Shown: positions 1,855 to 29,698 of the stretch, piece after piece | Numbering within the stretch: the stretch's first letter is position 1 | Layout of the letters: each line of letters begins with the position of its first letter | DNA from: a virus | Virus record (IMG/VR): IMGVR_UViG_3300006920_000048 | Coordinates: 1-60,593 of that record | Length of the DNA stretch: 60,593 bases | Strand: one strand, 5' to 3' | Made by a program: the position numbers and the translations under genes | Notes under the pieces: generated by a model | Databases searched by the model: none | Told to the model about the DNA's origin: nothing | The model's input: the letters and a program-made list of their open reading frames with translations, nothing else

Positions 1855-3189
1855 ATGGTAGATGCTGTTCGGATCACTCACCAGTACGCCGAGGTTGTTA
1901 CTTCAGGTAGTAGTTCTACCGCTGCCAGAGTAACGCAACAGTACGCCGAGGTTGTTACTTCAGGTAGTAGTTCTGCCGCTGTTCGCATCACTCACCAGTA
2001 TGTAGAGGTCATCTATGTAAACCCGTTTGGTCAGGCTTCTGGATCATCGGAGGTACTTGGTGTGGGTAACGCTGCCACACTATCAGATGGTTCGTCATCC
2101 GGTACTGGTGCGGCACTTGCAGTAGGTGCGTCAACCGCAGAGTCATCAGGATCGGCATCGAGCACAAGCACAGTTACAGCAGTGTCAGAGGTGTTGGTTG
2201 CAGCTGTTGGTGAGGCGTCTGGTACGAGCACAGTAACAGGCTTTCATGAGCCAGGAAGCACTGCCACAGCAGCAGGAACTGCCACTGTATCTGGTGTAGG
2301 TTTTGGAAATACTTCAAGTGTCGGATCATCTCTAGGAACCAGCACCGTTGTCGCTGTTGGAGAGACCATAACCGCCAGCCTTGGCAGTGCAGTAGGGTCT
2401 GCATCCACATCAGGTACAGGGTCATCTACTGTGGCTGTGGTAGCTACGTCGTCAGGGTCAGCAACCACTGTGGGGGTGGCAGTAGCCTCTCTGGTAGCGG
2501 AATCTGCAGGAACCTCAACAGTAATAGGTGTAGGAAGTTCGATTTCCAGTGGTGTAGCTACGTCATCAGGATCAACCACCTCAATAGCTGTGAGTACGGT
2601 CACGACTGACTCCGTTGGTAGCTGTTCAGGCTCCTCGGTGATCGCTGGAGTGGCTGATAGTATATGGGTATCAATCGCCGAGTCATCAGGGTCAGCTACC
2701 TCAACAGCTATAGGCTCATCAACCTCAGCAATCACAGGCCATGCAGAAGGTACAAGCACAACCGTAGCCACAGGGTCAGCTATAACCGATGTGGTTGCAG
2801 TGTCCACAGGTACAAGCACAGCCGCAGCCACAGGATCAGCCATACTGCCAGCAGTAGGTTCGTCATCAGGATTGTCGAGCGTCACAGGATTCGGGTTGGC
2901 ATTACTGCCAGCCACAGGAACATCAACAGGTGTGGGAACCGCTACTGGAGTAGGCAAGTCGAATGCTGCCTCGGAAGCGCACATGCATGGTGTAGCGTTG
3001 GTCACAGGTATAGGTTCGTCTCTGGCTGACGTTGTAGGGAGCGCAGCAGGTTTCTCTGCTGTTGTCGGAAAGTCTCGTGTATTTGATGCTGACTTATCAA
3101 ACATCATTTACATAGGTCATGTATCAGCACAACGGGTACATACAACAATAGAAGAAGATGAAGAGATTCGTCTGACAATAGAGGCATAG
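1855..3189 (+). CDS. Second 20-residue-repeat tail protein
   Basis: The protein is 444 aa. The N-terminus carries three imperfect copies of R-[IV]-T-x-Q-Y-[AV]-E-V, two of them encoded by near-identical DNA (1876-1980). Residues ~65-410 are about 17 tandem 20-residue units of the form GTSTVIGVGSSISSGVATSS. The C-terminus ends IEEDEEIRLTIEA, like the tail of the repeat protein at 1-725. The even period suggests a fibrous beta-structure. It is probably part of the tail fibre set with its neighbours. Low-complexity composition leaves long stop-free shadows on the opposite strand that should not be annotated. Confidence 0.75.
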   Translation: MVDAVRITHQYAEVVTSGSSSTAARVTQQYAEVVTSGSSSAAVRITHQYVEVIYVNPFGQASGSSEVLGVGNAATLSDGSSSGTGAALAVGASTAESSGSASSTSTVTAVSEVLVAAVGEASGTSTVTGFHEPGSTATAAGTATVSGVGFGNTSSVGSSLGTSTVVAVGETITASLGSAVGSASTSGTGSSTVAVVATSSGSATTVGVAVASLVAESAGTSTVIGVGSSISSGVATSSGSTTSIAVSTVTTDSVGSCSGSSVIAGVADSIWVSIAESSGSATSTAIGSSTSAITGHAEGTSTTVATGSAITDVVAVSTGTSTAAATGSAILPAVGSSSGLSSVTGFGLALLPATGTSTGVGTATGVGKSNAASEAHMHGVALVTGIGSSLADVVGSAAGFSAVVGKSRVFDADLSNIIYIGHVSAQRVHTTIEEDEEIRLTIEA

Positions 3190-15178: not shown

Positions 15179-15422
15179 AATCAAATACACCTTCTTGGTT
15201 GGTTGAAAATCCCTTTCCATCCACTGGAACCCACACCTGTTCTTCTACCTGGATGAACTTATTTACTTTCTTGGTGTCCCTGTCCTTTCGTACAACCACT
15301 TTGGCCACCGGAGGGTTCGTGAATCTGACGTTGTCGCTGGCACATGCTGGCGGTATAAAACTAAGCACAAGAGCGCCTGTTATAACTCCACATATCCACG
15401 GGAAAAGTGTTCCTTCTTTCAT
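15168..15422 (-). CDS. Secreted/periplasmic hypothetical protein
   Basis: ATG at 15422 overlaps the polymerase stop as TGATG, with AGGAG seven bases upstream. The 84-aa product begins with a signal peptide (ICGVITGALVLSFIPP) and a plausible cleavage site after ACA. The mature domain (~58 residues) contains VEEQVWVPVDGKGF. An exported protein inside a replication operon is odd; it could act at the envelope, for example in exclusion, but nothing in the sequence proves this. Confidence 0.6.
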   Translation of the reverse strand: MKEGTLFPWICGVITGALVLSFIPPACASDNVRFTNPPVAKVVVRKDRDTKKVNKFIQVEEQVWVPVDGKGFSTNQEGVFDYDK

Positions 15423-18172
15423 CAATCTACTCCTTTTAAAGTTCCCCAAGTCTTACCTAACTTGGCATCAACTGGCAGTGGTATTGCAGGTGTCCACCCC
15501 CAGGCTTTTTGGTACGGTAAATTACTTAATACTTTCTTCATGTGCCTCACTTTCTGCTCCGCCTTGCCATCATCCTTGACGAATGTGAACAGTGCGTCAT
15601 GCAAATCCCATGCGTATATGTGATCAGCGTCAAAGTAATTGCGAGCTACTGCGATAGCAAGAGCTTTCATACATCCTCCAGACCCTTGAATGGGGAAGTT
15701 GATAGCAGTCTGTTGCTGATCCCATCGTGTAAGATCCCACAGCTTGATCCTTCTATGTCCGCGTGTCTCAGCGTACCCTTGTGTTGCCGCCTTGCGCTGT
15801 GCTTCTTTCCAATATTTAGGAACACCAGGATACGTGCGCAGGTACGTCTTCTTTATATGGTCAGCCTTGGCTCTCCAAAGCTGTAGTCCGTAGCCAGTTA
15901 GCGCACGAGACATTAATGACTCTACACCAATTCGGTATTGAAGTGAAAGGTTAGCGAATTTGCCCATGTTTCGGACTTCCTTAGCCAACGGATCAGTGTC
16001 TGCTTTGGTGCGCACCCACTCATAGTCTTTGCCTTCAATGTTGGCACCCATGTAAGCATGACCATCACCACCAGTCTCAAACAATTCAAGCATGGTCTCA
16101 TCTTCCGATTCACATGCCATCAATCGCATCTCTTGACCAGAGAAATCGAATTCAGCCAGCAAGTATCCAGGAGGTGCTCTCAACAGATTGCGAGCATTAG
16201 GCCCCCGCTCCCATTGGTGCAACGCTATACCTGTCTGGCATATGTTCTTGCCTTTACCTTGCGTCGATGAGTAGGTAAAGCGCCCTGAATTTCCAGTTAC
16301 AAATATTGTACCTTTGCTTCTAGCCAGCCAGTAACCTGTTTTGGTGCTTGTGCAGTAGGTTTTGATTGGCCCACTTACATACTTTACATGTCGATTGTGT
16401 ATCTGTGCAATCGGTCTGATGTGAGCCTCAGAAACATGTAACTCATAAATCCCTTTGTATGGCTGGTGTAGCCTTCCTTTCAGACCTGACAGATGCGCTG
16501 CTGTGTGCATCCACACAGCATTGGACTCAGAGTTAGTACTGTACTTGAAGCCTCCATCTTGATGAGGTGATCCATCCCAATACTTAGACTCCATTACAAA
16601 ACTTCTAAGACCTTCTTGTGTTGTGTCTAAAACCCAAGGGCCAAGGAACTTCTTGTCAGCGGTCATCCATGCAGGTATACACCCCTTGAAAATCGTTATG
16701 GTTGTCCTGTCTGAAAATTCATTCTTGCCTCTGTTCGCGTTATAGTCGATGGCATTGGCCTCTAATAACTCACGTAATCTCTCTATCTTGCGACCCTTCT
16801 TTAACGTGAATTTCACTCTGTATCTGCCAATATCCCACCAAGCATCTGCCTGAATAGCGCACAACAACCTCATTTGAGGGGGTGTTAGAGATCCGTTGAG
16901 TGTGGCAATGCCTGACACCGGCACGTCAACTCTGTGATTAATCAAAAATCCAGCTGTCTTGTCTTGCCATTTCTCGTATTTCTGCGATAGCGTGGGTATT
17001 TTATGGTTGTGTGTAAAATCACATCTCATACCTGGGTGGTTGACAGACACCATACCGTCAACAAGTCCACCATCAACTCTGTCAGCGTGTAAGAATTCTA
17101 TCTGTAGCTTGTCATCAACCTGGGCAATAACACCACCTTGCCAGTCATCTAGTCTTCTCCAGCCATCTGTAGTCAACACCTCAACATCACCTGGTACGCA
17201 ATATGTGCCAGACATGAAAGGTGATGGGTATGTTATAGGGCCTTTGTTGTACTCAGCACTCTTGCGCACCCCGCCGATAAACTTACTTGACTGCGTGTTG
17301 CACTTGCGCATGGCCATAAGTGCTCCGAACCGGAGATCCTCCGGGTGTTCAATTGATAGCTTAAGCAGTGTTTCTTTATCTGTAGATGCGTTGCCTGACG
17401 CGGATGTCTTTATGGGTGTATAACCCCAGCCATCAAACACCAGCGTGCGTAGCTTGGCAGGTGATCTTATTGTGGCCATCTCAATACCAGCAGCGTCAAG
17501 TGTAGCAATGGCAGCACGTGCTCTAACATCCTCTTCAAACGGTTCTAAGGCGTCAAGGTTAAGGGCGATGCCTGTTATGGCAGATAAAGCCACATCAGGT
17601 ATGCCATAACACTCAATAATAAGGCCGCGTATCTCGTCATTGGTCATAGTAGTCAGATACATTTGCGTAAGCTTGGCGGTGAACTTGGAGTCGCGCATGT
17701 TATAGATCAACAGATCTCGCCACTCTTCCTCTGTCTCAGGTACTTTTATATCTTGAATACCATAATCGGCAAACTGCGGCCATATTCTCTTGACTTCTTC
17801 CTTGAGGCCATACCCTACACCGCCAAACTGTTTGGCCTTCCAGCCATCAACCCGTTTGAGCGCGAGCATGCCATCCAACCACATGCACTGCTTAACCTCA
17901 TCAGTCAGATCAATGGCGCATAACCATGCCACATCGAACACTACATTCCAACCCACAAGGGTATACTCTTTCTCAGCTGCGTACACCAAAAATTTTCTTA
18001 GTGTCTCCTTTGATGGCATACATTTGGCGCATTTTATTCTACCATCCTGGCTGTTAGGAGACCACGCAGCGAATGACTTTATTGTAGCCTCACCTGTCTT
18101 GGCACGCCATGGTTGAAGTCCGTACTCCCTGACCTCTTGAGGTGTTTCCAAATCAAATCCACAAAGTTTCAT
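15422..18172 (-). CDS. Family-A DNA polymerase with 3'-5' exonuclease, interrupted by an intein
   Basis: The protein is 916 aa. The N-terminal exonuclease has CGFDLET (D7, E9), VGWNVVFDVAWL and YNMRDSKFTAKL. Polymerase motif A is AEFDFSGQEMR (~675), motif B RNMGKFANLSLQYRIG (~732) and motif C LHDALF (~857), where the usual Glu after HD is Ala. Residues 325-628 are an intein inserted in the TY/SGRFTYSS element that corresponds to the conserved T-G-R-L-S-S motif. Removal leaves a 612-aa polymerase, a normal size for a phage PolA with exonuclease. Its ATG overlaps the stop of the gene upstream (ATGA). Confidence 0.9.
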   Translation of the reverse strand: MKLCGFDLETPQEVREYGLQPWRAKTGEATIKSFAAWSPNSQDGRIKCAKCMPSKETLRKFLVYAAEKEYTLVGWNVVFDVAWLCAIDLTDEVKQCMWLDGMLALKRVDGWKAKQFGGVGYGLKEEVKRIWPQFADYGIQDIKVPETEEEWRDLLIYNMRDSKFTAKLTQMYLTTMTNDEIRGLIIECYGIPDVALSAITGIALNLDALEPFEEDVRARAAIATLDAAGIEMATIRSPAKLRTLVFDGWGYTPIKTSASGNASTDKETLLKLSIEHPEDLRFGALMAMRKCNTQSSKFIGGVRKSAEYNKGPITYPSPFMSGTYCVPGDVEVLTTDGWRRLDDWQGGVIAQVDDKLQIEFLHADRVDGGLVDGMVSVNHPGMRCDFTHNHKIPTLSQKYEKWQDKTAGFLINHRVDVPVSGIATLNGSLTPPQMRLLCAIQADAWWDIGRYRVKFTLKKGRKIERLRELLEANAIDYNANRGKNEFSDRTTITIFKGCIPAWMTADKKFLGPWVLDTTQEGLRSFVMESKYWDGSPHQDGGFKYSTNSESNAVWMHTAAHLSGLKGRLHQPYKGIYELHVSEAHIRPIAQIHNRHVKYVSGPIKTYCTSTKTGYWLARSKGTIFVTGNSGRFTYSSTQGKGKNICQTGIALHQWERGPNARNLLRAPPGYLLAEFDFSGQEMRLMACESEDETMLELFETGGDGHAYMGANIEGKDYEWVRTKADTDPLAKEVRNMGKFANLSLQYRIGVESLMSRALTGYGLQLWRAKADHIKKTYLRTYPGVPKYWKEAQRKAATQGYAETRGHRRIKLWDLTRWDQQQTAINFPIQGSGGCMKALAIAVARNYFDADHIYAWDLHDALFTFVKDDGKAEQKVRHMKKVLSNLPYQKAWGWTPAIPLPVDAKLGKTWGTLKGVD
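16289..17200 (-). other. Intein with LAGLIDADG-like endonuclease region (304 aa) inside DNA polymerase
   Basis: The intein runs from Cys325 to Asn628 of the precursor. Block A is CVPGDVEVLTTDGW, block B CDFTHNHKIP with T-x-x-H, and the C-terminus IFVTGN is followed by Ser as the first residue of the C-extein. Penultimate Gly replaces the usual His, a variant seen in other phage inteins. Two acidic helices, LRLLCAIQADAWW-like near residue ~435 and FVMESKYWDGSPH further on, resemble the two LAGLIDADG helices with their catalytic Asp residues, so the homing endonuclease may be active. Confidence 0.85.
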
Positions 18173-18384
18173 GGTGTTATCCCTATCGTGCCGTTTATAG
18201 TAAGTGTATCGCCGTCAAACTCAAACTCACACCCAGGCATCTCAGTGCGCAGCATTCTTTTGAAGTCCATCAACTGATTGGAGTCCCTCAATGCAAGCGG
18301 GTCGCTTGGTGTTACGGCTTGTCTGTGGTGATCATGAGCCACAATATGTGACCACGCCGATCTTATCAACTCTAAATCACTCAA
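18169..18384 (-). CDS. Mini-protein of the C-terminal N-G-C-I family (member 9)
   Basis: TTG start at 18384, six to seven bases after AGGAG and overlapping the upstream stop as TTGA. The 71-aa product opens with SDLELIRSAWSHIV and ends GDTLTINGTIGITP. The N-terminal amphipathic helix plus C-terminal strand motif matches the small proteins between 18639 and 21730. It directly precedes the DNA polymerase gene (ATGA overlap). Function unknown. Confidence 0.6.
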   Translation of the reverse strand: MSDLELIRSAWSHIVAHDHHRQAVTPSDPLALRDSNQLMDFKRMLRTEMPGCEFEFDGDTLTINGTIGITP

Positions 18385-18608
18385 GGGTGTCTCCTTATAA
18401 CCATGTACTCTCTAAATTCCATGTCTCTATCAAGCAAACGCTCAGTCTTTCCAAACATGGTGACGTTGTGCCTCTTGCCCCAAGCATATGCCGCTCTCAA
18501 TGCCTTCATAGCGTAAGTTCTGTCACCGCCAGCGCCGATTAAAATCTTCAAAGGGAGTTCTTTGGTGACATCTTTGAAATTATACTTAGGTCGTGGTGAT
18601 GGAGACAT
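18381..18608 (-). CDS. Hypothetical protein, first gene of polymerase transcript
   Basis: The 75-aa protein is encoded just downstream of the promoter at 18633-18661. It is basic with a central helix (GGDRTYAMKALRAAYAWGKR) and a C-terminus rich in Arg. It does not carry the mini-family motif. Not recognised; small DNA-binding protein is possible. Confidence 0.6.
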   Translation of the reverse strand: MSPSPRPKYNFKDVTKELPLKILIGAGGDRTYAMKALRAAYAWGKRHNVTMFGKTERLLDRDMEFREYMVIRRHP

Positions 18609-18632
18609 TGGAGTTCCTTGTGTTAAAATGAC

Positions 18633-18661
18633 ATTGTATCACAGTTCTTTAGTATCATCAA
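18633..18661 (-). promoter_or_regulatory. Sigma70 promoter, TTGATG class
   Basis: Leftward TTGATG, 17 bases, TACAAT, followed by GTCATTTTA. It overlaps the end of the mini-gene at 18639-18830 and would drive the polymerase operon. It shares its sequence layout with the promoter at 10595-10623. Confidence 0.7.
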
Positions 18662-18830
18662 GACGTGCCCACATTATGCAGTTGTTGATTACCCACACCG
18701 AACAGCTGCTGACCTTAACTGTGTGACCTGTGTCACGCAGCTTTCTTATGCACATCATCCATGCGGCGAGATCACCTGAAGTAAACTGCACCTCAGCCTT
18801 GTCCAACTTCGTGAAGATATCATCACGCAT
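18639..18830 (-). CDS. Mini-protein of the N-G-C-I family (member 8)
   Basis: ATG at 18830 with AAGG five bases before it, overlapping the preceding gene by eight bases. The 63-aa protein starts MRDDIFTKLDKAEVQF and ends VWVINNCIMWARLDDTKEL. The longer in-frame extension upstream is an out-of-frame reading of the preceding paralogue and should be dropped. Confidence 0.65.
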   Translation of the reverse strand: MRDDIFTKLDKAEVQFTSGDLAAWMMCIRKLRDTGHTVKVSSCSVWVINNCIMWARLDDTKEL

Positions 18831-18999
18831 TTCGACCTTCTTCGTGCAGTAATATACAACCATTAATAACCCACAACCCTTTACCGTTGTATTTTGCTGT
18901 GATGCCAAACTCACCAAGCTCACTCTCGAACAAACCCCACCATTGATCACCGTAGTAAGAGACGTGATCGTCAATCATCTTAAACAAGTCAACCATCAT
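18823..18999 (-). CDS. Mini-protein of the N-G-C-I family (member 7)
   Basis: ATGATG at 18999/18996, eight to nine bases after GAGG. The ~58-aa protein reads MMVDLFKMIDDHVSYYGDQ... and ends GLWVINGCILLHEEGRNA. Its last codons are nearly identical at DNA level to those of the next upstream gene (18989-19162), evidence of recent tandem duplication. Confidence 0.65.
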   Translation of the reverse strand: MMVDLFKMIDDHVSYYGDQWWGLFESELGEFGITAKYNGKGLWVINGCILLHEEGRNA

Positions 19000-19162
19000 C
19001 TCGACCATCCTCATGCAAAAGGATACAACCACCAACACACCACAGTTTGCGGCCGAGGTATTTAATATCATCCGGCATTCCTGTCGTGACTGCTTCGATT
19101 CTTAAGTCTGCAATAAAGACCTCAAATCTCTCAAAGATATCAGTTGAAGTTGATGTATCCAA
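18989..19162 (-). CDS. Mini-protein of the N-G-C-I family (member 6)
   Basis: A 57-aa frame starting at TTG 19162, eight bases after GGGAGGG, and ending at TGA 18989-18991. It contains DIFERFEVFIADLRIE and ends LWCVGGCILLHEDGRDDG, closely matching LWVINGCILLHEEGRNA of the next gene. It overlaps the gene before it by 23 bases and the gene after it by 11. Confidence 0.6.
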   Translation of the reverse strand: MDTSTSTDIFERFEVFIADLRIEAVTTGMPDDIKYLGRKLWCVGGCILLHEDGRDDG

Positions 19163-19433
19163 AGGTAGACCCTCCCAGAATTATCCGAACATCATCAACA
19201 GTTGCTAGATCAAACCCTGCCTTGAGTACAGCCGACTTGATTCTGCTGATCGGTGTGTCTGCTGCATCTATAATCACTTCAACCACACCATTGCGCACAC
19301 CAACCTCGCATGTATGTTTGCCATCATCTGGCAGTGATTGACCAAGCGCACTTATCAGATAGGTAAGCTTAGTCTCGGTGCGACGTGCTCTGTCTAGTAG
19401 TTCTCTAGTGTTTTCAATATCTTGTATTGTCAT
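19140..19433 (-). CDS. Hypothetical protein within the mini-gene array
   Basis: The 97-aa protein has a clear ribosome binding site (AAAGGAAAATAAA before ATG). The N-terminal half is a charged helix (IENTRELLDRARRTETKL), the rest alternates strand and helix (VRNGVVEVIIDAADTP, ILGGSTFGYINFN). It lacks the shared C-terminal motif, so it is either a diverged relative or an unrelated insertion in the array. Not recognised. Confidence 0.6.
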   Translation of the reverse strand: MTIQDIENTRELLDRARRTETKLTYLISALGQSLPDDGKHTCEVGVRNGVVEVIIDAADTPISRIKSAVLKAGFDLATVDDVRIILGGSTFGYINFN

Positions 19434-19458
19434 TTTATTTTCCTTTTAGTCATCATGA

Positions 19459-19695
19459 TTAGCTCCTGTATTTATCGGTCAATACAATGCACTCATACAC
19501 AATTTCAGTGCATTTAATCCCATTAGCCTCGATGTTGTACTCTTCAAAGATAGCACGACGTAACGCATTGCGAGTTCGTATATGCGATTTCTCTGACACT
19601 AACATTAACATTTTGCAAGTTATGTAATCCTTGTGTCTAAACCAACACAGCGCGTCCCATAACCTGAACAGCCTGTCTATTCGTGATCTTTTCAT
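19459..19695 (-). CDS. Mini-protein of the N-G-C-I family, divergent (member 5)
   Basis: Start chosen at the ATG at 19695, which overlaps the previous stop as ATGA; an ATG at 19707 is the alternative. The 78-aa product is more basic than its relatives (MKRSRIDRLFRLWDAL) and ends IKCTEIVYECIVLTDKYRS, where ECIVL aligns with GCILL. Membership is less certain than for the others. Confidence 0.5.
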   Translation of the reverse strand: MKRSRIDRLFRLWDALCWFRHKDYITCKMLMLVSEKSHIRTRNALRRAIFEEYNIEANGIKCTEIVYECIVLTDKYRS

Positions 19696-19925
19696 CCGGC
19701 CCACCATCCAGAAGGTACAACAAGGATAATGGTTCCATTCACGATTCCATGCTCATACCAGTGACCAGCGTCATCAGCGCAAGTGTAGCACTCGAAGGTA
19801 TCACACAAACGGAGGATCTCACCTTTCAACGTGGATCTGAACAGCATGTCGTTGGTGTTTGATCGCTGCTCGAACAGATCCTGGATGTGGTCTATTGGGT
19901 CACGATGTTCATATTTAGTCATCAT
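19692..19925 (-). CDS. Mini-protein of the N-G-C-I family (member 4)
   Basis: Start at ATGATG 19925/19922, overlapping the previous stop by 11 bases. The 77-aa protein has an N-terminal helix PIDHIQDLFEQRS and a C-terminal HGIVNGTIILVVPSGWW. Thr replaces Cys in the motif. Several Cys residues (LCDTFECYTC) occur in the middle. Confidence 0.6.
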   Translation of the reverse strand: MMTKYEHRDPIDHIQDLFEQRSNTNDMLFRSTLKGEILRLCDTFECYTCADDAGHWYEHGIVNGTIILVVPSGWWAG

Positions 19926-20139
19926 GATTAGATCCAAAACTGTTTGACAACATAATACACCCGTTAATTAGCGCCACTTCATGCAACTCCCCGTCAATGC
20001 GGTTGCAATCGAAGCTGAATGATGTGACCTTACTTTCTATCACCAGCCGTGTGTGATGTCGTGATGGTGCAGCCATGGTTGTGTGATCTTTCCACAACCG
20101 CTCAAGGTCTTCAAATTTAGTCGTTGAAGTCGGCTTCAA
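19915..20139 (-). CDS. Mini-protein of the N-G-C-I family (member 3)
   Basis: TTG start at 20139, six bases after GGAG, overlapping the end of the VWA gene by 23 bases. The 74-aa product opens KPTSTTKFEDLERLWKDHT and ends EVALINGCIMLSNSFG. The tight overlap with the VWA gene suggests translational coupling to it. Confidence 0.55.
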   Translation of the reverse strand: MKPTSTTKFEDLERLWKDHTTMAAPSRHHTRLVIESKVTSFSFDCNRIDGELHEVALINGCIMLSNSFGSNHDD

Positions 20140-21289
20140 TTGTTTCTCCAAAGCTCGCTACCTCCCCACTGTCCACCACCCATAGCACAGGCACGCTACA
20201 GCTATCAGGCATAGGCCCATACATATCGGTGAATATGATTAATAAATGGCACTCGTCTGCAGCCTCAGCGTACTCAATTATTGGGTGGAAATCAGTACCT
20301 CCACCGCCAACTGCACGCATCTGCAGGTCGTAGTCTGGCCCTGTATACACATCATTGCCTTTGATCTCTGAGTCGAAGTAAACAACATCAACCTCAGAAG
20401 GCTGGCAGTCGGACATGATGTCGGAGCAGTGAGTACCCATAGCACCAGCCTGAACATCACTGATAGAGCCTGAGTAGTCGAAGCCTATGATAACCTTGCC
20501 AAGAGACTCTGACGCCATCTTAGGGCATATCATACCGCCGTAGAGCATGGATCGTTTGAAGTCTGGCTTAGCCCAATTGAACTCAGCTGCAGTCATTGCC
20601 ACCATGTACTTCTGCAGCTGTGAGTACCATGGTTGTTTGACCACCTGAACGCCGGCTACGAACCGGCGCACTGTGCTGGTATCCTTGCCAGCGGCCTTCG
20701 CTGCTTCAGCCGCACTAGCAGTTCTTATGCCAACATCACGCTCATGCTCAGCAGCAGACTTGCCTTGATTATCAGCCGGGTCGTAGTCTTTGATGTCGAA
20801 CCAATCAGCATCAAGCCCATTCAACAAACCACCGCTACCATCACCAACACTCTCACCTTCATCCGGGTTTTCCTTGGACATTTTAATGAGCTTGTCATAG
20901 ACAGCTTCAGTAGACATGCCTTTGAACAAGTCCTCACGCAATAGCGCATCACCAGGAACCTTCAAGCCGTTGTCCTCGGATAGCAACCCATTGACCACAT
21001 AATCCGCAGCAATGTTCCAAATTTTTGGGTTGCGTATGCCGCGTCGTGATGAGTGGAACAACACCACGTGCATTATCTCATGTGCTAAGATAAACACCCG
21101 ATCTTCCAATGGTCTTGGATCGAACTTGGCAGGGTTGTACTGCAGGAACACACCGTTGGTGGCTGCGATTGGCCCTTCGTTGTCTACCTTTATTTTTAGA
21201 TCGTAAAGTAATGCTGTGAAAAATATGTCACGCATTGTTAGCTTGGTGACAGCATCAATAAATCCTTGTGACTGTTCTTCTCGTTTCAT
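20117..21289 (-). CDS. Metallopeptidase/VWA-like protein (DUF2201 type)
   Basis: The protein is 390 aa. The N-terminal domain has a zinc-protease signature FILAHEIMHVVLFH (His70, Glu71, His74, His79). The C-terminal VWA-like domain has a MIDAS-type FDYSGSISD (~271-279), GGGGTDFHP (~330) and IIFTDMYG. This domain pair defines the DUF2201 family, which usually accompanies a MoxR-type AAA+ ATPase, here encoded at 21732-22784. The middle 120-190 segment is Gly/Asp-rich linker. Such pairs remodel or activate protein complexes; a phage substrate is unknown. Ribosome binding site AAGGAAAAG. Confidence 0.85.
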   Translation of the reverse strand: MKREEQSQGFIDAVTKLTMRDIFFTALLYDLKIKVDNEGPIAATNGVFLQYNPAKFDPRPLEDRVFILAHEIMHVVLFHSSRRGIRNPKIWNIAADYVVNGLLSEDNGLKVPGDALLREDLFKGMSTEAVYDKLIKMSKENPDEGESVGDGSGGLLNGLDADWFDIKDYDPADNQGKSAAEHERDVGIRTASAAEAAKAAGKDTSTVRRFVAGVQVVKQPWYSQLQKYMVAMTAAEFNWAKPDFKRSMLYGGMICPKMASESLGKVIIGFDYSGSISDVQAGAMGTHCSDIMSDCQPSEVDVVYFDSEIKGNDVYTGPDYDLQMRAVGGGGTDFHPIIEYAEAADECHLLIIFTDMYGPMPDSCSVPVLWVVDSGEVASFGETIEADFND

Positions 21290-21322
21290 GTCTTTTCCTT
21301 TGTGTGTCTAGATACAATGTGT

Positions 21323-21342
21323 GCTAGTACCTAGCGTACTAA
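21323..21342. promoter_or_regulatory. Operator-like palindrome, variant spacing
   Basis: Half-sites CTAGTAC and GTACTAA as at the other sites, but separated by five bases instead of three. It overlaps the last codons of the mini-gene at 21331 and precedes the VWA gene leader. Confidence 0.4.
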
Positions 21343-21531
21343 AATAATGCAGCCATTTACAATAAGGCCGGTTACAATAGGGCCATCTGTAATAAAGGTG
21401 CTTTTGGAGTAAGCTAGTGGTGGACAACTCTCAGTCACATATGTAATTACCTGATTAAATTGCTCAAGGTTAGTAAGCCCCCAAGCACTGTGTTGGATCT
21501 CCCAAAAGTATTCCAGTTCTTCAAAGGTCAT
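21331..21531 (-). CDS. Mini-protein of the N-G-C-I family (member 2)
   Basis: ATG at 21531 with AAGGA seven bases upstream, overlapping the preceding gene by 11. The 66-aa protein starts MTFEELEYFWEIQHSAW and ends TGLIVNGCIILVR, one of the clearest examples of the motif. It lies between the MoxR and VWA genes. Confidence 0.65.
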   Translation of the reverse strand: MTFEELEYFWEIQHSAWGLTNLEQFNQVITYVTESCPPLAYSKSTFITDGPIVTGLIVNGCIILVR

Positions 21532-21730
21532 AGGGTATCCTTATACATCCTTGGATTGTTACTCCAGTAATGTCAAACTCCGCACCGGATCGCAGGAGTT
21601 TAGTTCTGCGTCTCATATCATGGCCTTTCATTGACATGCCGATGTGTACCCAACCTTGAGGTATGGAGCACTCCTTGGAAAACTCAGGCCATATAGCGTA
21701 CACCTCCTCAAGATCCTGGTGGGCTGACAT
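21521..21730 (-). CDS. Mini-protein of the N-G-C-I family (member 1)
   Basis: ATG at 21730, one base after the MoxR stop (TAACATG), so probably coupled. The 69-aa protein opens MSAHQDLEEVYAIWPEFS and ends ITGVTIQGCIRIPYDL. The longer frame reading back into the MoxR gene is a shadow. Confidence 0.6.
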   Translation of the reverse strand: MSAHQDLEEVYAIWPEFSKECSIPQGWVHIGMSMKGHDMRRRTKLLRSGAEFDITGVTIQGCIRIPYDL

Positions 21731-21731
21731 G

Positions 21732-22784
21732 TTAGGACAAGTCCAGGATAGCAGCTGTGAGTTCTTTATTCTCACGGAACCATGCACGATACTCAGGAGT
21801 GCGTGCAATAGCGTCACGATCACCACCGCTACTTGCCAACAGCTTGTGATACAACACCTGCACTTCCGTACCAAACCGCTCTGTGTACGTTCTGACAGCC
21901 TTTAAGTCTTTGGCCTTGGTCGTTGTTGCAAGCATGGCAATGACTGCCCATACGTCTGACATCTGCTCAGGCATGAAGGCTAATTTTGGGTCGTGTATGA
22001 TTTGATCATATGACACCAGTGTACGAGCGGCACGCAGGAACCCAATGAATTCTTTGCCAACTGACTCGCCAATATCACCGATGATCTCGTCTTCAGTCAT
22101 TTCTCCAGCTTCGGTGTCAAGCAGACCATCACTTAGACGAACCCATGCGCGAGGATTGGCCCATGCACCATACGTTTTTGTCTCCATATGCTTAGCGAAG
22201 CTATCGACATGGTGCATAGCAATGGACAAGTAAGCCTGCACGTACTGAGACGCACCGATATCTGCCAAGTGTTTCAAGAACCCGTCGACACACACTTCGA
22301 CCTCAACATGGCGTGATCGAGATAATAACGCGAGTGACTGCTGCACAACCCCGGACTTGTGTTTAAGGCTATTGGAGTCGGATATAATGATAACTCCTGC
22401 AGGCTTCTGCAACCCGCCCATGTCTTCGTTGTTGATGTACTTCTGCAGTGCTTTGTTTGTGGCTGGATCAGCATTGTCACGTTCACCCAAGAACAATATG
22501 CCTCGAATATTTGGATCATCGAATCGGTTCGGTAGAGCTGAGTTGTGGAAATGCTCTAATCGCTTGGAATCCATATTTGGTACCACAGCTGAGAAATCAA
22601 GTGGTGACATGCTTGGGGTGTATACATTCCAAAGCTTGAAGGACGGGTCATTCTTCTGGATGTCACGAACAGCTTGCTCAATAATCATCGTCTTACCAAT
22701 GCCAGGATTACCTGTCAAGTGGATGTTAACTCCTGTACGAACTGCACGAGTGATGATTGCTGGGATTTTTTGAATTGAAGTCAT
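21732..22784 (-). CDS. MoxR-type AAA+ ATPase
   Basis: The protein is 350 aa. Walker A is TGNPGIGKTM (~24-33); the Walker B position reads GILFLGERDNA, where Gly-Glu-Arg-Asp replaces the usual L-D-E; a sensor-like IIISDSNS follows, then an all-alpha C-terminus. Size and order fit the MoxR/RavA/CbbQ group, which works with VWA-domain partners. The metallopeptidase/VWA partner is two genes downstream on the same transcript. Ribosome binding site AAAGGAAAA. The leader shares the string GTATCTA and a CAAAGGA site with the VWA gene leader. Confidence 0.85.
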   Translation of the reverse strand: MTSIQKIPAIITRAVRTGVNIHLTGNPGIGKTMIIEQAVRDIQKNDPSFKLWNVYTPSMSPLDFSAVVPNMDSKRLEHFHNSALPNRFDDPNIRGILFLGERDNADPATNKALQKYINNEDMGGLQKPAGVIIISDSNSLKHKSGVVQQSLALLSRSRHVEVEVCVDGFLKHLADIGASQYVQAYLSIAMHHVDSFAKHMETKTYGAWANPRAWVRLSDGLLDTEAGEMTEDEIIGDIGESVGKEFIGFLRAARTLVSYDQIIHDPKLAFMPEQMSDVWAVIAMLATTTKAKDLKAVRTYTERFGTEVQVLYHKLLASSGGDRDAIARTPEYRAWFRENKELTAAILDLS

Positions 22785-22884
22785 AATATTTTCCTTTGTA
22801 TGTTTAGATACATAGCACGTTAGTGCCTTGTTTAAGTTAAAGTTTTGCTGCTTGGTTCGGCATAGTAGCCTTTACGTGTCCCGG

Positions 22885-22901
22885 CTAGTACGCCGTGCTA
22901 A
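22885..22901. promoter_or_regulatory. Operator-like palindrome
   Basis: CTAGTACGCCGTGCTAA, a copy of the TTAGTAC-N3-GTACTAA element, located at the end of the 22898 gene and ~100 bases upstream of the MoxR start. Confidence 0.55.
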
Positions 22902-23683
22902 CCAGGCAATTGATTACGTTCGTTAAATAAATTCTTACGTTCAGCAAGCATGTCGGTTATCTTGTCCATGACACACATCACAATGGCTGATGGGATATCA
23001 CAGCGTATTGGCTTGATGTGCTTGATGAGCTTCAACACGTCACGGCGTAACGTGACCAGCTGTTCGCTAATCTCTTCTTTGCGCTGCTCTTGCTGAAATC
23101 TTTCGCCATCCTCCCGTAGCACTTCGCACTCACGCTCTGCCATACTGTCTGCTGCCTTAGCTGCGTCGGCATGACTGCCATACACCTCACTGACGTCGAT
23201 AGTTATGCCATCGCAGTCCACTGTACGAATAGCTGCAAGGAAGGATGTATACTCGCCCTCACAACCTGTTTCGTTTCTAATTTGCGTGCATTTTTTGTGC
23301 GATATCTGGATAGTCAACGACTCGACTCTATCTAGGGAATCACCACCTACGTGCCACGTATTAACTGCATTAGGCTCCATACGTCCTGTGAACTCGTGAC
23401 CTTCCTTCATATACACATAATTGCCACACTCGCTGCGGTTGCAGTAGCTACGTGAGTACGTGCGGCGATACCATTGGTGTTGCTTGGCCTTTTTAATTGC
23501 CGCTCGTCTGGCAAGTACTTCAGCCGCACCCTTACCTATCTTATCGAGCACATCCTGATACACCTCGATGTCAATGTAGCTGTCACTAGCGGATCTGGCA
23601 AGTGAGTCAGAGTGTTGATGGATATGTGTGGCTAACTCGCCAGCCTTGGTTAGTGTGTAGTTATTGTCATTTCTTTTGAACAT
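22898..23683 (-). CDS. Hypothetical protein, Cys-rich
   Basis: Start taken as the ATG at 23683, eight bases after GAGGGG; ATG 23689 overlaps the previous stop but is only two bases from it. The ~261-aa product has a Cys-containing segment (YCNRSECGNYVYMKEGHEF), a beta-rich centre and a long charged helix with coiled-coil character (ERECEVLREDGERFQQEQRK). Not recognised. Confidence 0.65.
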   Translation of the reverse strand: MFKRNDNNYTLTKAGELATHIHQHSDSLARSASDSYIDIEVYQDVLDKIGKGAAEVLARRAAIKKAKQHQWYRRTYSRSYCNRSECGNYVYMKEGHEFTGRMEPNAVNTWHVGGDSLDRVESLTIQISHKKCTQIRNETGCEGEYTSFLAAIRTVDCDGITIDVSEVYGSHADAAKAADSMAERECEVLREDGERFQQEQRKEEISEQLVTLRRDVLKLIKHIKPIRCDIPSAIVMCVMDKITDMLAERKNLFNERNQLPG

Positions 23684-23685
23684 GA

Positions 23686-23994
23686 TCATTTCCCCTCTAT
23701 TATTTGATTAACTGGCCATCCCCTGGCATGCCGTGAGGCTAACGTGTTCAGTGATACTCCGGTCTTGATTGACCATTGCTTAATCGTACCTTCAGTGCCC
23801 TTGTACTTGAGTTTTATAGTTGGTTGTCGCGTACCTTTACGCCCTTCCCTTCCATTTATACACTCGGTAGGTGTCCAGCCCCTGTACTCACGATCTTGTA
23901 GTGTCCTTAGCGGCACGCCGTATTTACGAGCCATGTACGACAGCGTGGCTGTCTCACCTTTGTATGTAATAGTTATCTTACGTTTTTTTGACAT
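23686..23994 (-). CDS. Protein with two copies of a ~45-aa HTH/AP2-like repeat
   Basis: The 102-aa protein consists of two repeats: ITYKGETATLSYMARKYGVP ... RTLQDREYRGWTPTECINGR and LKYKGTEGTIKQWSIKTGVS ... LASRHARGWPVNQIIEGK. The pattern (Y-x-G, helix, G-V-x-x-x-T-L, R-G-W, I-x-G-K) is the small DNA-binding module often found with phage HNH or homing nucleases. Here it stands alone without a nuclease domain. The next gene upstream has the same two-repeat design. Confidence 0.75.
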   Translation of the reverse strand: MSKKRKITITYKGETATLSYMARKYGVPLRTLQDREYRGWTPTECINGREGRKGTRQPTIKLKYKGTEGTIKQWSIKTGVSLNTLASRHARGWPVNQIIEGK

Positions 23995-24322
23995 ATTTTT
24001 TCCCTATTTTTCCGTGAACTATCTCTATGCTGTTAGTCCAGCCTCTATAGTGTCGACCATAGATTGTGTTGTATGATACACCTGTAGCCCGAGACAGCTC
24101 GGTCAGTGATTGGTACGTAATCCCTCTATAGATGACAGGTGTTGACAGCTTAGTCGGGCCGAAGTTAGCCGGATCTCTCTTAGGTCTGCCTTCTATAATC
24201 TCATAATCAGCCCAGCCTCGTCTGGCTCTGGTGTAAAGTGTTGCTGCAGGCATGTTTAATTCTTCAGCCCACCGCCACAAACATTGTGTCTTGCCGTTGT
24301 AGTTAAGTTTAGTCTTTCTCAC
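23978..24322 (-). CDS. Second two-repeat HTH/AP2-like protein
   Basis: GTG start at 24322, eight bases after GAGGAG, replacing a longer unsupported frame. The 114-aa product carries LNYNGKTQCLWRWAEELNMP ... RGWADYEIIEGR and VIYRGITYQSLTELSRATGV ... YRGWTNSIEIVHGK, the same module as in the following gene. A paralogous pair made of four copies in total. Likely DNA-binding; targets unknown. Confidence 0.7.
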   Translation of the reverse strand: MRKTKLNYNGKTQCLWRWAEELNMPAATLYTRARRGWADYEIIEGRPKRDPANFGPTKLSTPVIYRGITYQSLTELSRATGVSYNTIYGRHYRGWTNSIEIVHGKIGKKYVKKT

Positions 24323-28611: not shown

Positions 28612-29037
28612 TTATATTATCACCGCATCTTTACTGATTTGTGCGGGTGTTGGCAATTTTTGAATATCAGCCTTTCGAGTTATAACCTTGCGTTGAGCTT
28701 GTTGGATGGCCGCATGCAAACGCTGACGGTCTGCTACCATGTAAGCCTTGTTATCTGTATCGTTCAATAGAGCGGTTAGCTTATCCTGCCATGTAAGAAT
28801 ATTTTCTTCAAGCAGTCGAACTTCAAGATTCAATAGCTTAAGCCGTGTCATTATAACCTGACGTTTCAACGTCGTAGTGGCTACACTACCGCAGTACAAC
28901 AGCTTATCCCGCGCTTGCTGAAGCTCACTCTTACCTGCCATAGACTCCACGTGCGCCAAGGCCGCAGCTTCGGTTTTGATTCGCTGTAAGTCCTCTTTAG
29001 ATGGCAAAGAGGGGTTGCGTTTATTAATAGCTTTCAT
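28612..29037 (-). CDS. Coiled-coil protein of an L-Y-C-G-S paralogue pair (B)
   Basis: Start ATG 29037, nine bases after GGAG. The ~141-aa product reads SLPSKEDLQRIKTEAAALAH, then DKLLYCGSVATTTLKRQ and a long helix (LKLLNLEVRLLEENIL). It aligns along its first ~75 residues with the gene just upstream (A): same spacing from LP-[ST]-K to LYCGS. Recent tandem duplication is likely. Function unknown. Confidence 0.65.
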   Translation of the reverse strand: MKAINKRNPSLPSKEDLQRIKTEAAALAHVESMAGKSELQQARDKLLYCGSVATTTLKRQVIMTRLKLLNLEVRLLEENILTWQDKLTALLNDTDNKAYMVADRQRLHAAIQQAQRKVITRKADIQKLPTPAQISKDAVII

Positions 29038-29437
29038 ATTTGTTAAACTCCTTATTGTTGCGTAACCATGTGCGAAGATCAGCTGATTCTCTCTGTTTGG
29101 CTTCGATAGCCTTGGCAAGTGCTAACTGATCTGGATCAGGTCGCCTCCATTCACCTGATTCAAGCTGTGCTGTTGTTGGCAATGTGTGTTGAACATCTTC
29201 TGTTATTTTGGATCTCAAAACACCTAATTCCAAGCGCAGTAATTCAACCTTAATTTTGTACAATCTGACCTTGAATTTGTAAGCTCTTTTTGACAATACC
29301 GTAGCCTCACGACTGCCACAATATAGGATATTTTGCTTGGCAATCTGTAGTGGTGTTTTGTCTGGCAATGTGGTTGCGTGCTCAAAATCTGCACGCTGTT
29401 TTATGTGTTCAACTTCGCGTTTCGTAGGGAGTGTCAT
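29024..29437 (-). CDS. Coiled-coil protein of an L-Y-C-G-S paralogue pair (A)
   Basis: Start ATG 29437 after AAGGTGTATAT. The ~137-aa product contains TLPTKREVEHIKQRADFEH, QNILYCGSREATVLSKRA, and a long basic helix (KVRLYKIKVELLRLELGVL). Paralogue of the downstream gene. The conserved Cys in a short turn between helices could be functional. Function unknown. Confidence 0.65.
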   Translation of the reverse strand: MTLPTKREVEHIKQRADFEHATTLPDKTPLQIAKQNILYCGSREATVLSKRAYKFKVRLYKIKVELLRLELGVLRSKITEDVQHTLPTTAQLESGEWRRPDPDQLALAKAIEAKQRESADLRTWLRNNKEFNKYESY

Positions 29438-29698
29438 ATATACACCTTGTTTTTTGTTTAAGAACTGATACATTAACATTGTTTGAGATATAATACAAGT
29501 ATTTAGAGTATAGTTTTAGTAGTTAAACAAAAAAGGCTGTTTATAGCACAAAAATGAGGCACTATCCAAAATGTCACCGCTAACTATCCAAGGGGTATTG
29601 GTCAAAACGTGTTGTTTTATTTTGGTGTGTTTAGTGTGACGGTTCTGTAAGTGCTTGAAGTTCTTTAAGTTCTTTTGGTTTTGAGCTAAACAGTAATA

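Follow-up and report, generated by a model that had tools for sequence, protein, structure and literature searches.

The DNA analysed here, referred to below as the window, is a 60,593-base IMG/VR virus record. Between positions 18169 and 21730, the minus strand carries nine small genes of 57–78 codons, interspersed among genes for a MoxR-type ATPase, a metallopeptidase fused to a VWA-like domain, and a family A DNA polymerase (PolA). All nine open reading frames (ORFs) were found at the stop positions listed in an initial annotation of this DNA, and most have a plausible ribosome-binding site (RBS). The members are named by their stop coordinate (e.g., 21521) and are listed here in the order of transcription, with lengths in amino acids (aa) and overlaps in nucleotides (nt):

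21521..21730, minus strand: member 1, 69 aa, in the gap from MoxR to VWA, starting 1 nt past the MoxR stop; ends VTIQGCIRIPYDL
21331..21531, minus strand: member 2, 66 aa, RBS AAGGA, 11-nt overlap with member 1; ends GLIVNGCIILVR
19915..20151, minus strand: member 3, 78 aa (TTG start at 20151, with GGAGG) or 74 aa (TTG start at 20139); ends VALINGCIMLSNSFGSNHDD
19692..19925, minus strand: member 4, 76–77 aa, start at 19925 or 19922, 8–11 nt overlap with member 3; ends GIVNGTIILVVPSGWWAG
19459..19695, minus strand: member 5, 78 aa, basic and the most divergent; C-terminal motif EIVYECIVL, N-terminal motif DRLFRLWD
18989..19162, minus strand: member 6, 57 aa, TTG start with GGAGG; ends LWCVGGCILLHEDGRDDG
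18823..18999, minus strand: member 7, 58 aa, 11-nt overlap with member 6; ends LWVINGCILLHEEGRNA
18639..18830, minus strand: member 8, 63 aa, 8-nt overlap with member 7; ends VWVINNCIMWARLDDTKEL
18169..18384, minus strand: member 9, 71 aa, TTG start with AAGGAG, 4-nt overlap with the PolA start; ends LTINGTIGITP

The transcript order on the minus strand, from 22784 to 15422, is the MoxR ATPase, 21521, 21331, the metallopeptidase/VWA gene, 19915, 19692 and 19459, followed by a 97-aa gene (19140), 18989, 18823, 18639, a 75-aa gene (18381), 18169 and PolA. The initial annotation described head-to-tail overlaps of 1–23 bases. Most of the genes do overlap, although the range is different: adjacent members overlap by 4–11 nt, and the overlaps with non-member genes are 4 nt (18381 and PolA), 23 nt (19140), and 23 or 35 nt (the VWA gene). 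For three members (21331, 19459 and 18639) there is no overlap with the gene that follows.

The nine proteins share a common design, in which a helix near the N-terminus carries the motif [DE]-[LI]-[FE] and h-[IV]-N-G-[CT]-I-h-L is found near the C-terminus. A shared design of this kind had been proposed in the initial annotation, and is borne out by the motif search and ranking described below; the description of the N-terminal helix as acidic holds for most members but not for 19459, which is basic, with a pI of 9.4. Alignment significance beyond composition had been set beforehand as the test of relatedness. In Smith-Waterman comparisons against shuffled sequences, 7 of the 36 pairs gave p<0.01, compared to 0.36 pairs expected. 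When each member in turn was left out of a full-length hidden Markov model (HMM) and searched for among the ORFs of the window, six of the nine were the top match outside the training set and 18169 was second, while 19459 and 21521 were missed.

A motif picked out by a reader is open to hindsight, and we therefore used an unsupervised search on the whole proteins, which was given only the nine sequences and returned the best common 9-mer. This was the C-terminal motif in all nine, with a score of 712 as against 189 ± 33 for shuffles (maximum 302; z=15.7). Random sets of nine ORFs, 150 in all, drawn from the neighbourhoods of related viruses reached 394 at most, and nine other small genes of the window, taken as one set, scored 221. 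The best 8-mer within the N-terminal 28 residues scored 284, compared to 126 ± 29 for shuffles (maximum 219); its nine occurrences are SDLELIRS, DDIFTKLD, VDLFKMID, TDIFERFE, DRLFRLWD, QDLFEQRS, EDLERLWK, EELEYFWE and QDLEEVYA. Using the C-terminal motif alone, six members rank first among 495 ORFs, with 18169 second, 21521 fourth and 19459 fifteenth. With both blocks and each member left out in turn, eight of the nine rank first and 18639 ranks second among the same 495 ORFs, all with p about 0.001, in a test that is not fully independent of the motif search because the motif positions were derived from all nine. From the motif scores and the two-block ranks we therefore conclude that this is a true family to which all nine belong, with 19459 included on the basis of both blocks taken together. 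The relatedness of the nine ORFs as one paralogous family, beyond composition, is thus confirmed at the level of sequence.

Two explanations that would make the shared motif a product of something other than common ancestry or protein function need to be considered. One is that nine unrelated proteins have converged on a β-hairpin with an Asn-Gly turn. Such turns are common in hairpins, the identity of the other members to member 3 is 16–30%, and the full-length leave-one-out HMM misses two members, all of which would fit with convergence. Against this, the control sets of nine small ORFs never come near the family score, a second, N-terminal motif is present in the same order, and there are DNA-level traces between neighbours; we regard convergence as very improbable. 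The other is that the C-terminal motif is an artefact, arising because the Shine-Dalgarno (SD) site of each gene lies within the 3′ coding end of the gene before it. There is a precedent in Vibrio phage pVa5, where the products of the small genes around VWA have LLEE or LLED at their C-termini because CTGGAGGA is the RBS of the next gene. In the nine-member family, the residues HEEGR/HEDGR that follow the motif, and RI in 21521, likewise partly overlap SD sites. However, the core [IV]NG[CT]I is not an SD sequence, and it is present in the three members whose 3′ ends lie clear of the following gene. Among 134 pairs of codons that encode identical residues, the codons differ in 95, and the frequencies of mismatch at codon positions 1, 2 and 3 are 0.48, 0.27 and 0.71, respectively. 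The distance from the motif to the next start codon ranges from 4 to 60 nt and does not track the start. The variation at the third position, together with the failure of the motif to track the next start, implies that it is the protein that is conserved and not an RBS, making the artefact scarcely credible. This comparison also provides a codon-level way to decide whether a shared C-terminal motif is genuine or is imposed by the RBS of the next gene. In pVa5 itself (L117, 3823–7289), LLEE/LLED tails are shared by the small genes around the VWA gene because the RBS of the next gene is encoded there; wherever phage genes overlap, RBS-encoded tails are a pitfall in the reading of motifs.

Traces of duplication can be found at the DNA level. 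The tails of 18989 and 18823 are identical at 25 of 33 nt (76%), counting distinct DNA only. A 22-nt repeat is found at two places:

19445..19466, minus strand: copy 1, at the stop of member 5, identical to 19914–19935 at 21 of 22 positions
19914..19935, minus strand: copy 2, at the junction of the end of member 3 and the start of member 4

The repeat at 19445–19466 is a copy of the member 3/member 4 junction and a trace of duplication, and is a stronger trace than the 33-nt tail. Clear DNA similarity is seen in few pairs and most others have none, which implies that the duplications are mainly old. The similarity of 18823 and 18989 noted in the initial annotation is therefore present, although limited to about 33 nt of the tail, and its suggestion that the array is expanding by duplication was too strong: most pairs are very divergent, and the duplication traces are short. 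Tandem pairs also occur elsewhere in the genome, indicating that duplication is not special to the nine-gene array. Genes 23686 and 23978 (23686–24322; E 4e-13) are tandem paralogues with repeated NUMOD1/HTH-like units, and 28612 and 29024 (28612–29479; E 5e-10) form another pair. On the plus strand, a 122-aa ORF at 357–725 resembles a portion of a downstream 444-aa ORF at 1855–3189 (E 6e-22), probably as the result of a partial duplication.

The family has no detectable homologues outside the window. A megablast search of positions 15400–24000 against phages gave no match; single members and sub-alignments found no homologue in IMG/VR viral contigs or in GTDB genomes, and the aligned nine have no stretch with enough conservation to scan a collection. 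Against 50,697 phage records the best E value was about 2–3, which is not credible, and PHROGs, Pfam and NCBIfam gave nothing above cut-off for any of the nine. A family profile that recovers all nine members in the window finds none in 50 related virus records, and scans of viral contigs with MoxR and PolA yielded no closer relatives; these absences are limited by the depth of the search, which included no metagenome scan: the available relatives are distant (their VWA proteins are about 30–35% identical), and proteins this short and divergent easily escape detection. The initial annotation had called for a family HMM and an examination of its co-occurrence with MoxR/DUF2201 in phages; this revealed neither homologues nor co-occurrence. 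Its statement that no system with such an arrangement had been described agrees with our searches, which found none. As far as sequence can tell, the nine are a previously unseen orphan family in one tailed-phage genome.

The genes among which the nine members are placed are as follows:

21732..22784, minus strand: MoxR-type AAA+ ATPase, Walker A GNPGIGKT; phrog_1297 (ATPase), 2.1e-41
20117..21289, minus strand: DUF2201 metallopeptidase (HEIMH) fused to a VWA-like domain (DYSGS), N4 gp25-like; Pfam DUF2201_N 4.7e-34, DUF2201 5.9e-17
19140..19433, minus strand: conserved 97-aa gene, not a member, with signature R-x-x-R-x-E-[ST]-[RK]; in most relatives it lies downstream of VWA
18381..18608, minus strand: small 75-aa gene, not a member
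15422..18172, minus strand: PolA with intein-like insert; Pfam DNA_pol_A 4.6e-35

The features of a MoxR/DUF2201-VWA pair are thus all present, with Walker A in the ATPase and both HExxH and the VWA MIDAS in its partner, as the initial annotation had recognised. By PHROG and Pfam, the pair belongs with the MoxR-VWA (DUF2201) pair of Schitoviridae/N4-like phages (N4 gp24/gp25) and jumbo phages, and in tblastn the window pair matches hundreds of phage records, those of Pollock, pVa5, Presley, XC38 and PA5oct among them. The difference is that in no phage examined does the nine-member family stand beside the pair, and no member is found near it in the named phages that carry it (Pollock, pVa5, Presley, phiFa, PA5oct and XC38). 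Among 23 related virus records, 13 have the VWA gene and 11 have MoxR, in each case together with VWA. The neighbourhoods of the relatives with both genes contain no family member detectable by HMM, and a two-block scan of 8,376 ORFs from relatives likewise found none. Small genes that relatives carry within or close to the gap between MoxR and VWA were considered as distant members and rejected, the best two-block scores in that scan (18 and 15) being at chance level.

Relatives keep the MoxR-VWA-19140 gene skeleton, and the 19140 gene recurs in most of them; its counterparts are 88–109 aa long, carry the same R-x-x-R-x-E-[ST]-[RK] signature and follow the VWA gene. The 19140 gene, seemingly also hairpin-ended, was considered as a source of the array and rejected, as hhalign to the nine gave a probability of 1.2%. 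In three relatives (G002, G009 and G019), MoxR and VWA stand side by side, and no small gene separates them. In others, the same slots hold unrelated small genes, some of them in paralogous sets: L093 has two "MEAHLxLxGWxP" paralogues, L094 has related copies, and L097 has a pair of small paralogues. The MoxR-VWA gap of L093 contains two small genes that group with genes present singly in L096 and L098. The MEAHLxLxGWxP small proteins form a multicopy family in the slot downstream of VWA (L093 11629–12218, L094 9786–11189, L097 9790–10325). These sets, and the small EVEVEA genes of relatives, resemble the nine in occupying the same MoxR/VWA/next-gene slots, in size class and in having more than one copy per genome, but they have no sequence relation to the nine and no PHROG match. 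The EVEVEA genes resemble DpnD/PcfM by eye only.

Structures of 19915 and 21521 were predicted using AlphaFold2, with the nine sequences as the alignment. The 19915 model (pLDDT 65.8, pTM 0.37) has helices at residues 8–15 and 27–37 and strands at 41–48, 51–58 and 62–67. The 21521 model (pLDDT 62.9, pTM 0.36) has helices at 3–20, 27–32 and 34–46 and strands at 50–53, 56–59 and 63–66. Two members that are about 16% identical are therefore predicted, at low confidence, to have the same α-α-β-β-β outline, though the two models come from the same nine sequences and so are not independent. In the models, the Asn-Gly of the motif is placed at the turn between the last two strands. A Foldseek search against viral models and the PDB gave no match below E 0.1. 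We also considered whether 21521 is MbtH-like and the family derived from the MbtH fold, because 27 residues around YAIWPEFSKECSIPQGWVHIG show local similarity to MbtH-like proteins (PF03621), with Pfam MbtH at E 0.0045 and MbtH chains in the PDB at E 0.019–0.29. The Pfam match, at 16.8 bits, is below the cut-off of 27 and covers the N-terminal part only; the C-terminal half of 21521 is unmatched, and the other members have no match. The MbtH fold runs from strands to helix, and the order predicted for 21521, again at low confidence, is helices followed by three strands. On these grounds an MbtH identity for 21521 was rejected, and descent of the family from MbtH is extremely improbable.

The reading that we favour, with about evenly balanced confidence, is that the nine genes are a lineage-specific, tandem-duplicated family of small binding proteins occupying high-turnover spaces of an operon. 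An ancestral small gene would have been multiplied by tandem duplication in the spaces of the replication operon (MoxR, VWA, the 19140 gene and PolA), after which the copies would have become very different in sequence. Each of the proteins is probably a small soluble domain of α-α-β-β-β type, with its last two strands forming a hairpin around the conserved Asn-Gly turn. This hairpin, together with the [DE]-[LI]-[FE] helix at the N-terminus, would provide a common scaffold, leaving the middle free to vary. The copies most probably act as small, stoichiometric binding proteins, each fitted to a different or changing partner, in the first place a host protein and in the second a phage replication protein, and copy number and divergence together would amount to a panel of variants. 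We infer the binding function from the size of the proteins, their copy number, their divergence and their position in the genome. Several points weigh against this proposal: the binding partners and the expression of the nine are putative only; the family is present in one genome, so that selection on it cannot be measured across phages; the models are of low confidence (pLDDT 63–66, pTM about 0.37) and have no significant structural match; and MoxR and VWA have members to either side of them, leaving room for a functional link in this one lineage.

Such a link is the basis of the suggestion in the initial annotation, that the nine are substrates, adaptors or interchangeable specificity subunits of MoxR and VWA, with the hairpin docking on VWA and the variable part selecting a client. 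Members do flank and separate the two genes. The VWA domains of MoxR systems have been described as capturing substrate peptides, and a third, variable component, VMAP, is part of the MoxR-vWA conflict systems of bacteria (PMC7159879); this is the best argument for adaptors, by analogy only. VMAP resembles the nine in being a variable component encoded beside MoxR and vWA, and differs, as described in that paper, in being a large tripartite protein with a VMAP-C domain, compared to 57–78 aa for the nine. However, no member was detected in relatives with both genes, including the three in which the pair is adjacent, and members also flank 19140 and abut PolA; adjacency in a gene-dense operon is weak evidence. 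The suggestion is thus unsupported, and we consider it distinctly unlikely. A more specific version, that the C-terminal hairpin is a docking tag for the MoxR-metallopeptidase/VWA machine and each variable body brings a different host protein for unfolding or cleavage, would be more doubtful still. We judge that the nine and MoxR/VWA probably share a location, by synteny, and not a partnership. Alternatively, the nine may be accessory factors of phage replication, acting for example on PolA or on the helicase/primase, and not directed at the host. They lie in one leftward block with the PolA, helicase and primase genes, and member 9 overlaps the start of PolA by 4 nt; but relatives with the same skeleton have no such proteins, and nine diverging copies exceed the need of a replication subunit, making this unlikely.

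The locus presents a nine-copy orphan family dispersed over three spaces of a conserved phage operon, and the region marks a small-gene turnover slot that a group of uncultivated phages have in common. Should the copies bind host proteins, they would constitute a ready-made natural variant panel of a minimal binding scaffold. If they dock instead on MoxR/VWA, they would help to explain a widespread phage chaperone pair, whose function has so far only been proposed, in jumbo phages as a virion-assembly chaperone (PMC7824862).

We note finally that the PolA gene at the end of the transcript contains an insert of approximately 300 residues (aa ~325–628), which starts with CVPGDVEVLTTDGW, ends with FVTGN before S, and is missing from relatives. 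Judged from its terminal motifs, the insert appears to be an intein.

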